47,537 bases of DNA from an uncultured Opitutales bacterium (GTDB lineage: Bacteria; Verrucomicrobiota; Verrucomicrobiia; Opitutales; Intestinicryptomonadaceae): positions 1 through 47,537 of the forward strand of contig URAJ01000018.1 in the NCBI GenBank assembly GCA_900545715.1, written 5' to 3'. The position numbers were made by a program, and so were the translations under genes. Shown one piece after another: positions 881 through 4,908 of the stretch. The notes beneath the pieces were generated by a model. The model had not been told where the DNA came from and did not search any database. It was given only the letters and a program-made list of their open reading frames with translations. The first letter of the stretch is position 1, and each line of letters begins with the position of its first letter.

Positions 881-1248
881 GTATGACTCCAACAGTCAGC
901 ATTGAACATAGCCGTCCAATGAGAAAAAAGATTAGCCAGAGCCCAGATAATACGCATTAAAAAAAACGTATATTTATATATAAGAGTAGAAAATCCCCTT
1001 CTCAACTCTCTATTATTCCGACGTCCTCCATTCTTCCAATTAATATTTTAATTAGAGAATAAACCCTATTACAGACAGTCATTAACTAAACCGTATTTTC
1101 CGCAATTTTTATATATTGCCTTAAATTACATAACTAAAAGTCGGAAGCTGGCAAGGCGCACAAAATCGCAGTAACCGGCGCGCAATATTGCGGTAATAAA
1201 ACCTTCCGAAAAATTTTTTCCAATTCTCAAAATACGGCAAAAATGAGC
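881..1248. other. Gene-free AT-rich stretch with one compound inverted repeat
   Basis: No convincing gene lies here. Between 1140 and 1216 the sequence can fold: TCGGAAG (1141-1147) pairs with CTTCCGA (1203-1209), and inside lies the perfect palindrome CGCAATATTGCG (1181-1192). A run of six T follows at about 1214. This could be the end of a small plus-strand RNA or just a terminator-like fold. I see no matching promoter. Confidence 0.3.
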
Positions 1249-1279
1249 AAAAAAAAGCGCCGCGCATATAGCGCGGCGC
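1249..1279 (-). terminator. Rho-independent terminator of the HTH protein gene
   Basis: A perfect 9-bp GC-rich stem (GCGCCGCGC at 1257-1265, GCGCGGCGC at 1271-1279, loop ATATA) is bordered on the low-coordinate side by A residues. On the minus strand it therefore ends in a T-run, 11 bases past the stop of the gene at 1291-1752. Confidence 0.85.
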
Positions 1280-1290
1280 CATAAATTGCA

Positions 1291-1752
1291 TTATTTTTCT
1301 TCGGGAGCGGCAGGCTCTTCCGGAGCTTTGGGAGTTTGCTTGTTCATTTTAGCTATTTCGCGTTTGCCCATTGAGCGCAACTGCGCAAGCCTTTCTTTGG
1401 CGCCGGCGCGCGGCGAAGTTTTGCCAAGTTCCCAGCAGCTTACGGTCAGTGTGCTCACCCCGACAAGCTTGGCAAATTCCGCCTGAGACATGTCGAATTT
1501 AGCCCTCAATTTTTTGATAGCTGCCGCTTTAAACCTAAAAGATTTCGACTTTTTACCGTCGGTATTTTCATCGGAATCTTTTGAAACTTCTGCGGAGGGC
1601 GCAGAAGGTGCGCATTTGACTTTCTTCGACAAAGCCGAGATGGTTTTGCGCAGTTCAACTATTTTCGCTTGCAAGGGCGCGACCGCCAGCTTTACCTCTT
1701 TGCGGGCGAGCCTGCGGATTTCTTCGTATAATACATTTTTTATATCTGCCAT
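1291..1752 (-). CDS. Coiled-coil protein with C-terminal XRE-type helix-turn-helix
   Basis: This 153-residue protein has a charged, helical N-terminus (residues 1-46, heptad-like, with EEIRRLARKEV), a Ser/Glu/Asp-rich linker (47-70) and a helix-turn-helix at about residues 78-125. The DNA-binding part shows the XRE pattern MSQAEFAKLVGVS followed by a recognition helix ending in WELGKTSPR. The tail is rich in Pro, Ala and Glu. It probably binds DNA as a dimer through the coiled coil; the target is unknown. AGGAAAAA precedes the ATG. It is monocistronic with its own terminator. Similar EIRRLARKE-type HTH proteins occur in several phyla, often without an assigned role, so regulator is a family-level inference only. 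Confidence 0.8.
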   Translation of the reverse strand: MADIKNVLYEEIRRLARKEVKLAVAPLQAKIVELRKTISALSKKVKCAPSAPSAEVSKDSDENTDGKKSKSFRFKAAAIKKLRAKFDMSQAEFAKLVGVSTLTVSCWELGKTSPRAGAKERLAQLRSMGKREIAKMNKQTPKAPEEPAAPEEK

Positions 1753-1893
1753 TTTTTCCTATAAAATTATGCAGACTTTGTAGCATATAAAAAATATATT
1801 TCAAGCATTTTTATGCATTTTTTTCATATAAGTATTTAACAATACTACTGTTTTAAAATCCGATATAATGTTTTGTATTTTGGGGGGCAAAAT

Positions 1894-3135
1894 TTATCGG
1901 ACGGAAATTATATCTTTCCAAGAAGTTGTATAAGCCCTGCTTAGCATATCGCGCCGCATTTTCCACTTTTTGTCGATACCTTCCGCAAGCGGGAAAAGCG
2001 TGCCCTTGCCGAATTTTTTATTAATTTTGTCGATTGACGAATATAGTTTGCTTTTTTGCGGTGAAGGCTCAAATAGCTCTCCCTGGACGGCTCCGTTTTC
2101 GAGTCCCCATAAGGTGACTCCGCTCTTCTTGTATCGCCTGCCCTCCAAGAAAATATCAGGAAGTTTCGCCAAAACATATTTTAGCATTTCCGACGTATCG
2201 TCTGTCGCCCTCGGAAATACCACATTTGCCGAAGCTACTCCGCCCTCAAGTTTCCGCGGAGAATACTCCGGATAATACACGAAGTAAACTCCGGCTCCTC
2301 CCGCGCGCTGCCCCTCTGCGCGGAGCTTTTCCGCCGCCCTTCCCAAATAGTACGCAACCGACTCCGATAGAGAATCAAAATCCCTAATGGGTTCGCCAAA
2401 ACACCTCGAATACGCTATGCTTTGCGAAAAATCCCCAGAATCGCGCAAATGCGAGGAGCAATCTATTCCCCGCAACTCCAAGGCAGTCCGCACGAGAGTC
2501 ACGCCATATTTCTTGCGGAGCCTATCCTCCGGATATTCCGCCAAATCTAAAGCTGTCAAAATTCTATCGCGCTCAAGTTTGGGCCCGAGACGGCGGCCTA
2601 CGCCCCAAACCTCGCCGACGGGAATTTTTTTTAGGATTTCTCCGTTTTTTTCCGGCATTACAAAAACTCCGCCTTCGCTTTTTTTCCCTATGTGGTTTGC
2701 GATTTTTGCGAGAGTTTTAGTCGGCGCAAAGCCAATCCCGCATGGTATTCCAATATTTTTTAGTATGCGCGCGCGGGCAGCCAGTGCGTATTCAAACAAA
2801 TCTGGCCTTTTGGGCGGAAAGACAAAAGCTTCGTCTATAGAATACTGTTCTATATCACCAAACGCCTCGCCAAGCACGCACATTAGCCGTTTCGACATGT
2901 CAGCATACAGCTCGAAATTGCTCGATTTCAAAATGATTCCGAGCTGCCGCACGCGCGGTCGCAACTGGAAGTACGGCGTGCCCATCGCTATCCCGAGAGC
3001 CTTAAATTCGTTTGAGCGCGAAACCACGCAGCCGTCGTTGTTGGACAATACCGCAACAGGCTTGCCGACGAGCGAACGGTCAAAAACTCTCTCGCACGAA
3101 ACAAAAAAGTTATTTCCGTCAACAAGCCCTACCAT
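1894..3135 (-). CDS. umuC: Y-family DNA polymerase, UmuC-like
   Basis: This 413-residue protein is close to the length of E. coli UmuC (422). The N-terminal palm carries the first catalytic Asp in VDGNNFF (D6). The second carboxylate pair is in SIDEAF (D101, E102). The early NNDGCVVSRSNE segment is typical of UmuC rather than DinB. A C-terminal QGELF resembles the beta-clamp-binding pentapeptide of Y-family polymerases. Its role is translesion synthesis past DNA lesions, normally together with processed UmuD. It starts 1 base after the umuD-like stop and has a good AGGTG site 3 bases before the ATG, so the two are co-translated. No Verrucomicrobia-type LexA box (TGTTC-N4-GAACA) is visible upstream of the pair. 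Confidence 0.92.
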   Translation of the reverse strand: MVGLVDGNNFFVSCERVFDRSLVGKPVAVLSNNDGCVVSRSNEFKALGIAMGTPYFQLRPRVRQLGIILKSSNFELYADMSKRLMCVLGEAFGDIEQYSIDEAFVFPPKRPDLFEYALAARARILKNIGIPCGIGFAPTKTLAKIANHIGKKSEGGVFVMPEKNGEILKKIPVGEVWGVGRRLGPKLERDRILTALDLAEYPEDRLRKKYGVTLVRTALELRGIDCSSHLRDSGDFSQSIAYSRCFGEPIRDFDSLSESVAYYLGRAAEKLRAEGQRAGGAGVYFVYYPEYSPRKLEGGVASANVVFPRATDDTSEMLKYVLAKLPDIFLEGRRYKKSGVTLWGLENGAVQGELFEPSPQKSKLYSSIDKINKKFGKGTLFPLAEGIDKKWKMRRDMLSRAYTTSWKDIISVR

Positions 3136-3136
3136 A

Positions 3137-3532
3137 TCACCTAAACTTTTTTATGCAGGCTGTCACCACGCCGAATATATCGAGATTTCCGCGCGGGGAA
3201 ATCGTCTTTTTCCCTGCCCTCCCGTCGTCGGATTCGAGAATGATTTTCCCGTCTTTAACACCGCGTATGCGCCTTGCCAGAAACTCGTTTTCCTCGTAAA
3301 GAACAACGATGTCTCCGTCTTTGGGATCCGCAGAGCGGTCCACCACCAATATGTCGCCGCTTCCGATACCCATTCCCGTCATATCGTCGCCGGACATTCT
3401 CGCAAAGAAAGTCGCCGGCGGATTGCGCACAAGCAACTCATTTAAATCCAGAGGCTTGCGCGCATACCCCCCGACCGCCGCCGCAAATCCGCCGAGGGGC
3501 AAATCTTCGGATATGTCTCTTTTTACGTCCAT
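3137..3532 (-). CDS. umuD: UmuD-like protein lacking both catalytic residues
   Basis: This 131-residue protein aligns along its whole length with UmuD (LexA/S24 peptidase fold), including DLNELL, the GDIV strand and the C-terminal LDIFGVV. In E. coli UmuD the self-cleavage dyad is Ser60 in SGDSM and Lys97 in EFTVKKL. Here the matching positions are Asp50 (SGDDM, codon GAT) and Arg87 (EFLARR), so both residues are gone. The position matching the Cys-Gly cleavage site is Gly14-Gly15, and the arm before it is about 10 residues shorter than in E. coli. I chose the ATG at 3532 over an upstream TTG at 3568 because that TTG sits inside a likely -35 box and family similarity begins after 3532. It is directly upstream of umuC. 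Confidence 0.85.
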   Translation of the reverse strand: MDVKRDISEDLPLGGFAAAVGGYARKPLDLNELLVRNPPATFFARMSGDDMTGMGIGSGDILVVDRSADPKDGDIVVLYEENEFLARRIRGVKDGKIILESDDGRAGKKTISPRGNLDIFGVVTACIKKFR

Positions 3533-3539
3533 ACTGCAC

Positions 3540-3568
3540 AATATCGTAATTTGCGCATAAAAGGTCAA
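3540..3568 (-). promoter_or_regulatory. Candidate promoter of the umuDC-like pair
   Basis: Read on the minus strand: TTGACC (3568-3563), 17-base spacer, GATATT (3545-3540). The -10 ends 7 bases before the umuD ATG, so transcription would begin at or next to the start codon. Confidence 0.4.
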
Positions 3569-3592
3569 GGTTTCAGCGCGCCTTTTTAGTTG

Positions 3593-3620
3593 TTGACTGG
3601 AAAATACGCGGAATTATTAT
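3593..3620 (+). promoter_or_regulatory. Candidate promoter of the CNNM/TlyC-type gene
   Basis: TTGACT (3593-3598), 16-base spacer, TATTAT (3615-3620). Each hexamer matches the sigma-70 consensus at 5 of 6 bases. The gene starts at 3634 with AAGGCGG just before it, so the leader is very short. It is arranged back-to-back with the umuD promoter. Confidence 0.5.
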
Positions 3621-3633
3621 AAGGCGGCAAAAT

Positions 3634-4908
3634 ATGGAATTTGTCATAATCGCTGCACTAATCATATCAAACGGTATCCTGGCAATGTCGGAGATTGCGC
3701 TAGTCTCGCTGAGGAAGTCGAATCTCGCTCTGGACGCAAAAAACGGAAGCAAATCGGCAAAAGAGGCGCTGGCTTTGGCGGAAAATCCCGATAGATTTTT
3801 TTCAACCGTACAAATAGGAATTACGCTAATTGGAATCCTAACCGGCATATATTCCGGCGACGCCCTCGCCGGTAAATTCGGCGAACAGTTGGCTGAAATT
3901 GGGATTCCGCAAAAATGGGCGGTACTGAGCGCGCAGGGCGTGATAGTGCTGGCGGCGACATACCTTACGCTGATATTCGGGGAGCTCGTGCCAAAGCGAA
4001 TTGGGCTCGCCGCGCCCGAGAGGGTCGCCAAGATAATCGCAGCCCCCATGACGGCGCTATCAAAGGCGACGGCGCCTTTTGTGTGGATTTTGAGCAAATC
4101 GAGCTCGGCCGTCTTAAACTTGCTGGGAATCAGCCAAATAAAAAATACCGTCACAGAGCGCGAGATAAAATCTCTCGTAGAAGAGGCCGAAGCGGGAGGA
4201 GAGGTTCAGCCCGTTGAAAGAAACCTTGTTGAGAGGGTATTTTCGCTCGGCGACAGGTTTGTCGAATCGATAATGACCCCGCGAAACGATATTGTAAAAA
4301 TAGACATATCTCTTTCAAACCGTGAAATAGGCGAACTCATACGCAAGTCTCCGCACACGGTATATCCCGTAATAGATGGGTCGCTGGATGAAATTCTCGG
4401 GACTGTATCCATAGAGGATCTTTTCGGAAGGCTTGACGAAAAGGATTTCTCCATAAAATCCGCCATCAAGCCCGTCCATTATTTTAAGGAGGACACAAAG
4501 GTTTACAACGCGCTTGAACAGATGCGCGAGTTGCGCCTAAAAAACGCCATAATATCCAACGAATTTGGCGTGACCCTTGGAATAGTGACGCTAAACGACA
4601 TAATAGACGCCGTCCTCGGCGATATGCCCGAAGCCAACGAGGAAATGGACATAGTGCAGCGCTCCGACGGCAGTTTTCTCGTTGACGGCCAATGCCCCTT
4701 CCACGACTTTTTGATATTTTTTGGATTGGAAGACCAAACCCAGACTTGCAACACGGTCGGCGGTCTGGTGCTCGCCCTATTAAAGCGCATTCCGAAAGCT
4801 GGAGAAAAGGCGGAATGGAACGGATTTGAACTTGAAGTAGTGGATATGGACGGCGCGCGCATAGATAAAATCATAGTAAAGCGCCTGCCAGAATCCTCCG
4901 TGCAATAG
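3634..4908 (+). CDS. CNNM/TlyC-family membrane protein (DUF21-CBS-CorC_HlyC)
   Basis: This 424-residue protein has the standard layout. A DUF21 membrane domain (about residues 1-190) starts with a membrane helix directly at the N-terminus and includes SEIALVSLRKSNL and the GITLIGILTGIYSG region. Two CBS repeats follow (about 205-330; the first begins near IMTPRNDIV), then a C-terminal CorC_HlyC domain (about 340-420). Characterised relatives export or regulate magnesium or cobalt, and the older name haemolysin is mostly misleading. It sits in the inner membrane with the CBS part in the cytoplasm, where nucleotide binding may control it. It is monocistronic and divergent from umuD. Confidence 0.88.
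   Translation: MEFVIIAALIISNGILAMSEIALVSLRKSNLALDAKNGSKSAKEALALAENPDRFFSTVQIGITLIGILTGIYSGDALAGKFGEQLAEIGIPQKWAVLSAQGVIVLAATYLTLIFGELVPKRIGLAAPERVAKIIAAPMTALSKATAPFVWILSKSSSAVLNLLGISQIKNTVTEREIKSLVEEAEAGGEVQPVERNLVERVFSLGDRFVESIMTPRNDIVKIDISLSNREIGELIRKSPHTVYPVIDGSLDEILGTVSIEDLFGRLDEKDFSIKSAIKPVHYFKEDTKVYNALEQMRELRLKNAIISNEFGVTLGIVTLNDIIDAVLGDMPEANEEMDIVQRSDGSFLVDGQCPFHDFLIFFGLEDQTQTCNTVGGLVLALLKRIPKAGEKAEWNGFELEVVDMDGARIDKIIVKRLPESSVQ

Follow-up and report, generated by a model that had tools for sequence, protein, structure and literature searches.

Replacement of the catalytic dyad and cleavage site in a UmuD ortholog of Verrucomicrobiota encoded beside an intact UmuC

Results and Discussion

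The window, which is the whole stretch of 47,537 nucleotides analysed here, encodes a protein that is, judged by its sequence, a UmuD ortholog turned non-peptidase. Both residues of the Ser/Lys dyad are replaced together with the cleavage site, and self-cleavage by the S24 mechanism is near certain to be impossible. The dyad was lost while the UmuD-UmuC pair was kept, thereby suggesting a polymerase that is run without the cleavage switch. The explanation preferred here, held with moderate confidence, is that LexA is gone, self-cleavage has been abandoned and UmuD persists in a structural role, as a subunit of a polymerase V that works independently of cleavage.

The UmuD protein and its catalytic positions

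The features of the gene are as follows.

3137..3532, minus strand: umuD ortholog of 131 aa with S24 fold, Asp50/Arg87 replacing the Ser/Lys dyad (Pfam, NCBIfam, PDB alignment)
3383..3385, minus strand: codon GAT of Asp50, at the position of catalytic Ser60 (PDB alignment and translation)
3272..3274, minus strand: codon AGG of Arg87, at the position of catalytic Lys97 (PDB alignment and translation)
3488..3493, minus strand: Gly14-Gly15, followed by FAAAV and not FPSPA, at the position of the Cys24-Gly25 cleavage site (alignment)

Pfam PF00717 (63.8 bits) was the sole domain detected in the 131 residues, and the match to NCBIfam PRK10276.1 reached 97.6 bits, below the curated cut-off of 110. 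An S24/LexA-type fold with UmuD as the best match was obtained by sequence, structure and fold comparison. The structure predictions are single chains in which the N-terminal arm was modelled without confidence; the match of the predicted model gave the same dyad register as the PDB alignment, that is Asp50 at Ser60 and Arg87 at Lys97. An earlier note on this DNA had claimed these two replacements and they were confirmed by the sequence and structure comparisons, the structure-based alignment restoring neither a catalytic Ser nor a catalytic Lys. By alignment, the Ser nucleophile and the Lys general base of self-cleaving S24 peptidases are absent from the protein, and so is the Ala/Cys-Gly cleavage site, in place of which stands Gly14-Gly15. 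The claimed loss of self-cleavage is therefore well supported, since neither the dyad nor the cleavage site is present. We considered and rejected a shift of the catalytic residues to other positions: S47 is Ala in the homolog P0005, and R87 is followed by R88 with the nearest Lys at K93.

The nearest known system is E. coli UmuD in DNA polymerase V (UmuD'2C-RecA). It shares with the window protein the fold, the operon order and a UmuC in which the catalytic site, the RecA-NT region and the C-terminal tail are present. Unlike E. coli UmuD, the window protein has no Ser-Lys dyad, Cys-Gly site or FPSP motif, and 14 residues instead of 24 precede the glycine. Phage P1 HumD is a Pol V partner independent of the usual cleavage; its model NF051876 matches the window UmuD at 49.9 bits, far under the curated cut-off of 120, which places the protein outside that model. 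Streptococcus pyogenes SipA, a signal-peptidase homologue, belongs to the same fold superfamily (fold match 4n31). In the available text of its description, SipA has Asp at the Ser position, is called an 'inactive' peptidase and is needed for pilus polymerisation, and Asp mutants were without effect (PMC4049620). SipA differs in being a membrane protein of pilus assembly and in having Gly at the Lys position, where the window protein has Arg. By analogy, SipA shows that the fold can lose its dyad, take Asp for Ser and yet stay needed.

Homologs and order of the losses

Homologs were taken from three lists (best 120 of 357, best 120 of 7976 and best 120 of 7143). In the best 120 of 357 homologs, Asp/Arg was found in 11 and Asp/His in one, and two fragments show one position each; P0011 (the Asp/His protein), P0013 and P0014, which are fragmentary or anomalous at one end, were counted separately. 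As 11 homologs share the pair, a sequencing error behind Asp50/Arg87 was rejected. An enlarged set of 179 rows (175 proteins, the window, Marseille-Q1082, the G204 fragment and E. coli) contained 153 Ser/Lys, 12 Asp/Arg, 9 Ser/Arg and 2 Ala/Arg rows and 3 others. Seven Ser/Arg rows were accepted (Marseille-Q1082, P0015-P0017 and P0241-P0243). P0024 was discounted as Ser/Arg evidence, being chimera-like and covering 42% of the query, and P0020, also Ser/Arg, is known from one sequence, on a contig of 666 bases.

The Ser and Lys columns were also read at genome loci in 82 distinct UmuD-like open reading frames, drawn from strong hits of the order search, family searches and five further genome loci. 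Ser/Lys was present in 79, the three others being Marseille-Q1082, a relic (locus L005) and G204. Among the relatives with a genome, Puniceicoccaceae bacterium Marseille-Q1082 was the closest found, and its UmuD stands half-way, Ser being kept and Lys changed to Arg. The profile search of the order, covering 372 genomes, gave no match stronger than Marseille-Q1082 and no Asp/Arg DNA beyond the window, and no relatives of the window UmuD were found in the viral contigs searched. No natural dyad-less UmuD was found in the literature searched, where most subscription papers fell outside coverage; the LexA mutant K156R did not occur in the 20 papers listed. A Lys-to-Arg LexA mutant is said to cleave slowly.

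The UmuD tree joined seven Asp/Arg and seven Ser/Arg rows in one clade with support of 100/99, the bootstrap being not fully settled. This clade adjoins the Ser/Lys proteins P0245 and P0258, belongs to a set of 18 rows of which four are Ser/Lys (100/98) and is nested among Ser/Lys UmuDs; by sequence, the window UmuD and Ser/Lys UmuDs are of common descent. The UmuC tree gave a matching core, in which the window and P0121 group with Marseille-Q1082, P0122, P0123 and P0126 (99/98), followed by P0124 and P0125. The UmuCs P0121-P0126 were paired with their UmuDs from the UmuC tree, and UmuD P0258 was paired with UmuC P0125 only by equal longest contig (10054) and contig count. Because the change of Lys to Arg is common to the Ser/Arg sister group, it is probably the earlier step and falls on the stem, with Ser to Asp following on the Asp/Arg branch.

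The Ala/Arg UmuDs P0055 and G204 fall outside this clade. P0055 attaches beside the Ser/Lys protein P0250, with P0250/P0251 as nearest Ser/Lys proteins, and the UmuC of G204 groups with P0134, near G018 and G104. The two may represent one or two further losses of the dyad, with Arg at the Lys position in each protein. They were rejected as surely independent losses: both lie on one side of a branch supported at 98/90, with a branch length of 5.75 for G204. The G204 UmuD (L041, 1486-1782) belongs to the same family as Marseille-Q1082 and is a fragment ending at the contig edge; its umuC is on a separate contig with catalytic motifs read as intact.

Within the Asp/Arg group, six full-length orthologs are 85-98% identical with no gap or stop. 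Among the seven Asp/Arg sequences 22 of 131 positions vary, with 2 of 44 in residues 7-50 and none in residues 7-19 around Gly14-Gly15. The Asp/Arg form looks to have settled after a burst of change.

Cleavage site and N-terminal arm

One of the 153 Ser/Lys rows is gapped at the cleavage site. Ala or Cys precedes the glycine of a GF pair in all 152 readable rows, and GFP is present in 151. The site reads G-GFAAA in the Asp/Arg rows with an arm and N-GFSAA in the seven Ser/Arg rows, the FPSP motif being lost in both; in P0055 it reads S-GFSAT. P0020 is the exception, as this Ser/Arg protein retains an intact CGFPSPA site. The change of Lys to Arg and the loss of the site are therefore not strictly tied, and a tight coupling of the two is weakened.

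UmuD' could still be produced if another protease cut the protein in trans, an explanation that we regard as quite unlikely. The invariance of residues 7-19 in the seven Asp/Arg orthologs would fit it, and in the available text of PMC5342242 a partner whose active site works can cut E. coli UmuD(S60A) in trans. It is opposed by the recognition site being replaced differently, with G-G in the Asp/Arg and N-G in the Ser/Arg proteins, and by the genome of Marseille-Q1082, whose single S24 match is UmuD itself.

The earlier note had also suggested that a shorter arm already mimics UmuD'. This part was dropped because the Ser/Lys sisters P0258 and P0245 share the length of 14 residues before the glycine; in addition, the E. 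coli truncation 'UmuD 8' acts like UmuD and 'UmuD 18' resembles UmuD' in the accessible part of the source (PMC5342242). In the E. coli Pol V model, as far as given in the text available, the N-terminal end of UmuD' sits in the UmuC cleft (PMC11791011).

The UmuC partner and rates of change

The partner gene lies directly downstream of umuD, one base apart.

1894..3135, minus strand: umuC, 413 aa, in which catalytic Asp/Asp-Glu is kept and both the RecA-NT region and the C-terminal tail can be recognised (domain matches, alignment)

The claim of an intact umuC was borne out. Asp6, Asp101 and Glu102 are kept in all six UmuC-tree members of the clade, as in 114 of 115 background UmuCs (the remaining one is gapped at Asp6), and five clade-specific changes were found among sites conserved at 90% or more in the 115 other UmuCs. 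The site aligned to E. coli QLNLF, which we take to be the beta-clamp motif, reads QGELF in the window and Marseille-Q1082 and QLDLF and QLDMF in G018 and G104. For the Pol V model, the available text gives the RecA-NT region and the C-terminal tail of UmuC as the parts binding RecA and UmuD' (PMC11791011).

UmuD changed fast on the dyad-less branch and UmuC little. Changes per column amount to 1.65 on the UmuD stem of the clade; on the UmuC stem they amount to 0.14, or to 0.21 when the count starts at the P0125 split. Pairwise identities were set against a control of 61 Ser/Lys umuDC pairs including E. coli, the comparisons of which are not independent. The window and Marseille-Q1082 are 77.2% identical in UmuC and 56.4% in UmuD by local alignment (51.6% end to end), whereas control pairs with UmuC at 75-80% have a UmuD mean of 77.0% and a minimum of 68.3% (60 comparisons). 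For the window and P0258/P0125 the values are 70.2% for UmuC and 48.5% for UmuD, against a control bin with a mean of 72.2% and a minimum of 60.4% (216 comparisons). The Ser/Lys pair P0258/P0125 compared with G018 gave 59.0% for UmuC and 62.3% for UmuD, inside its bin (mean 66.4%, minimum 57.3%). The Ser/Lys members G018 and G104 of the same family, with 81.0% for UmuC and 70.0% for UmuD, are the lowest of their bin (29 comparisons, mean 89.6%), so that UmuD is somewhat fast in this family anyway and not only in the dyad-less proteins.

Engineered uncleavable E. coli UmuD (S60A, K97A) is disabled at the same two positions. In the available text of the sources, UmuD(K97A) retains UmuC at the membrane (PMC4552617), UmuD(S60A) strongly lowers UV mutagenesis (PMC3901139) and UmuD 8 S60A does likewise (PMC5342242). 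These data oppose the preferred explanation, since uncleavable UmuD in E. coli does the opposite and restrains UmuC. They match a reading, considered unlikely here, in which uncleaved UmuD would be a permanent brake or checkpoint that holds UmuC inactive, the pair serving replication control and not mutagenesis. Against this reading, an unused polymerase should drift, and the catalytic residues and conserved sites of UmuC were kept as described above. The window form further differs from the E. coli mutants in being natural and clade-wide and in having lost the cleavage site too, while those mutants restrain UmuC (PMC5342242, PMC3901139, PMC4552617, as far as their available text goes). A cleavage-independent Pol V is favoured over a permanent brake on three grounds: another sequence stands at the cleavage site, UmuC retains its catalytic site, and control by LexA is probably missing.

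Gene neighbourhood and transcription

The neighbouring features are given below.

3634..4908, plus strand: CNNM/CorC-type membrane gene, divergent, a conserved neighbour (domain match, gene order)
3540..3568, minus strand: sigma-70-like promoter TTGACC-17-GATATT, with its end 7 bases upstream of the umuD ATG (site scan, conservation)
1291..1752, minus strand: HTH protein gene downstream of umuC, in the same place in Marseille-Q1082 (domain match, gene order)
1256..1280, minus strand: hairpin and T run resembling a terminator, downstream of the HTH gene (site scan)

The order CNNM gene, umuD, umuC and HTH gene is the same in Marseille-Q1082 (Puniceicoccaceae, Verrucomicrobiota). Judged by this order and the UmuC and UmuD identities, the window's organism probably stands near Marseille-Q1082. 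It is possible that the HTH gene is the third gene of the umuDC transcript, and its product is a candidate regulator where LexA is absent. Eight terminator-like sites were found against a mean of 4.3 in shuffles. Four promoter-like sites were found in 1200..4000 against a mean of 3.2 in shuffles, so conservation alone singles out the umuD one: TTGACCTTTT and TACGATA of this site are kept in L001 and L005, with GATACG as the second hexamer there. Divergent promoter-like sites for umuD (minus strand) and the CNNM gene (plus strand) lie within about 80 bases in window positions 3540-3620.

With no more than 7 bases between the umuD promoter-like site and the ATG, the umuD transcript would be leaderless and translation from the ATG is suggested. 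This position speaks against an internal start at TTG codon 11, which would yield a genetically pre-cut UmuD'-like protein; the codon does lie four codons before Gly15, and this explanation is held to be extremely unlikely.

LexA and RecA in the family

S24 matches were obtained in four of the 19 genomes of the Marseille-Q1082 family, every one at the UmuD locus, for assemblies whose completeness is not given; no S24 protein other than UmuD was found in the 19 genomes. The same search gave matches in 10 of 14 control genomes. RecA was found in 18 of the 19, and the nineteenth (G069), with no candidates in the S24, RecA or UmuC searches, is uninformative. The window UmuD itself has PF00717 alone and not the combination of DNA-binding domain and S24 domain by which LexA is recognised. 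From the S24 matches in the family genomes we infer a loss of LexA in the window's organism. G018 and G104, which belong to the family and lack LexA, still have a Ser/Lys UmuD, so the loss of LexA alone does not force the loss of the dyad. UmuDAb of Acinetobacter is, in the text available, a UmuD relative in bacteria without LexA (PMC11332147); it keeps self-cleavage and a DNA-binding domain according to the available part of PMC8565304, whereas the window UmuD has no DNA-binding domain.

UmuC of this type was found in four of the 19 family genomes, and the umuDC operon is dispensable in the family. At L005 190-335 (G002, an Opitutales MAG) a Ser/Arg-type umuD relic stands beside the CNNM gene and stops after about 49 residues; no umuC of this type was found in that genome. 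This scatter, the relic and the long UmuD branch would agree with an operon on its way out, UmuD being a gene in decay before loss. The six full-length Asp/Arg orthologs, at 85-98% identity without stop or gap, the S24 fold kept in the predicted model and the intact UmuC argue against decay, which is taken to be very unlikely.

Conclusion

It is likely that UmuD is retained as a subunit, and we infer the role of the uncleaved subunit in the preferred explanation as follows. With LexA absent from the family, polymerase V would no longer be gated by RecA-stimulated self-cleavage, and uncleaved UmuD would stay the arm-bearing subunit of UmuC. The complex would be governed by expression and by RecA binding via the RecA-NT region of UmuC, not by proteolysis, and Arg and Asp, now in place of the dyad, may be joined by a salt bridge and so keep the former active site shut. 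The complete scheme is put forward tentatively: a naturally cleavage-independent polymerase V whose proteolytic catch was taken apart in steps (Lys to Arg, cleavage site, Ser to Asp) in a LexA-less family, with full-length UmuD rebuilt as a constitutive activating subunit and a similar loss (Ala/Arg) at least one more time outside the clade.

Of the earlier reading, the loss of self-cleavage beside an intact UmuC stood and an uncleaved form working with UmuC is favoured, whereas the short-arm mimic of UmuD' did not hold; its third option, an inhibitor, is considered less likely. The present analysis adds that the protein belongs to a clade in which an intermediate state occurs, that at least one parallel exists outside this clade and that no LexA-type protein was found in the family.

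In textbooks, UmuD cleavage is the post-translational step that gates mutagenic synthesis, and in the available text of PMC3901139 and PMC4552617 an E. coli UmuD that resists cleavage blocks such synthesis. The Ser/Lys, Ser/Arg, Asp/Arg and Ala/Arg forms provide a comparison series for the roles of the arm and of cleavage. If the explanation is true, a lineage that fixed an uncleavable UmuD while keeping UmuC would mean that this gate is removable in nature and that its removal is tied to the loss of LexA.
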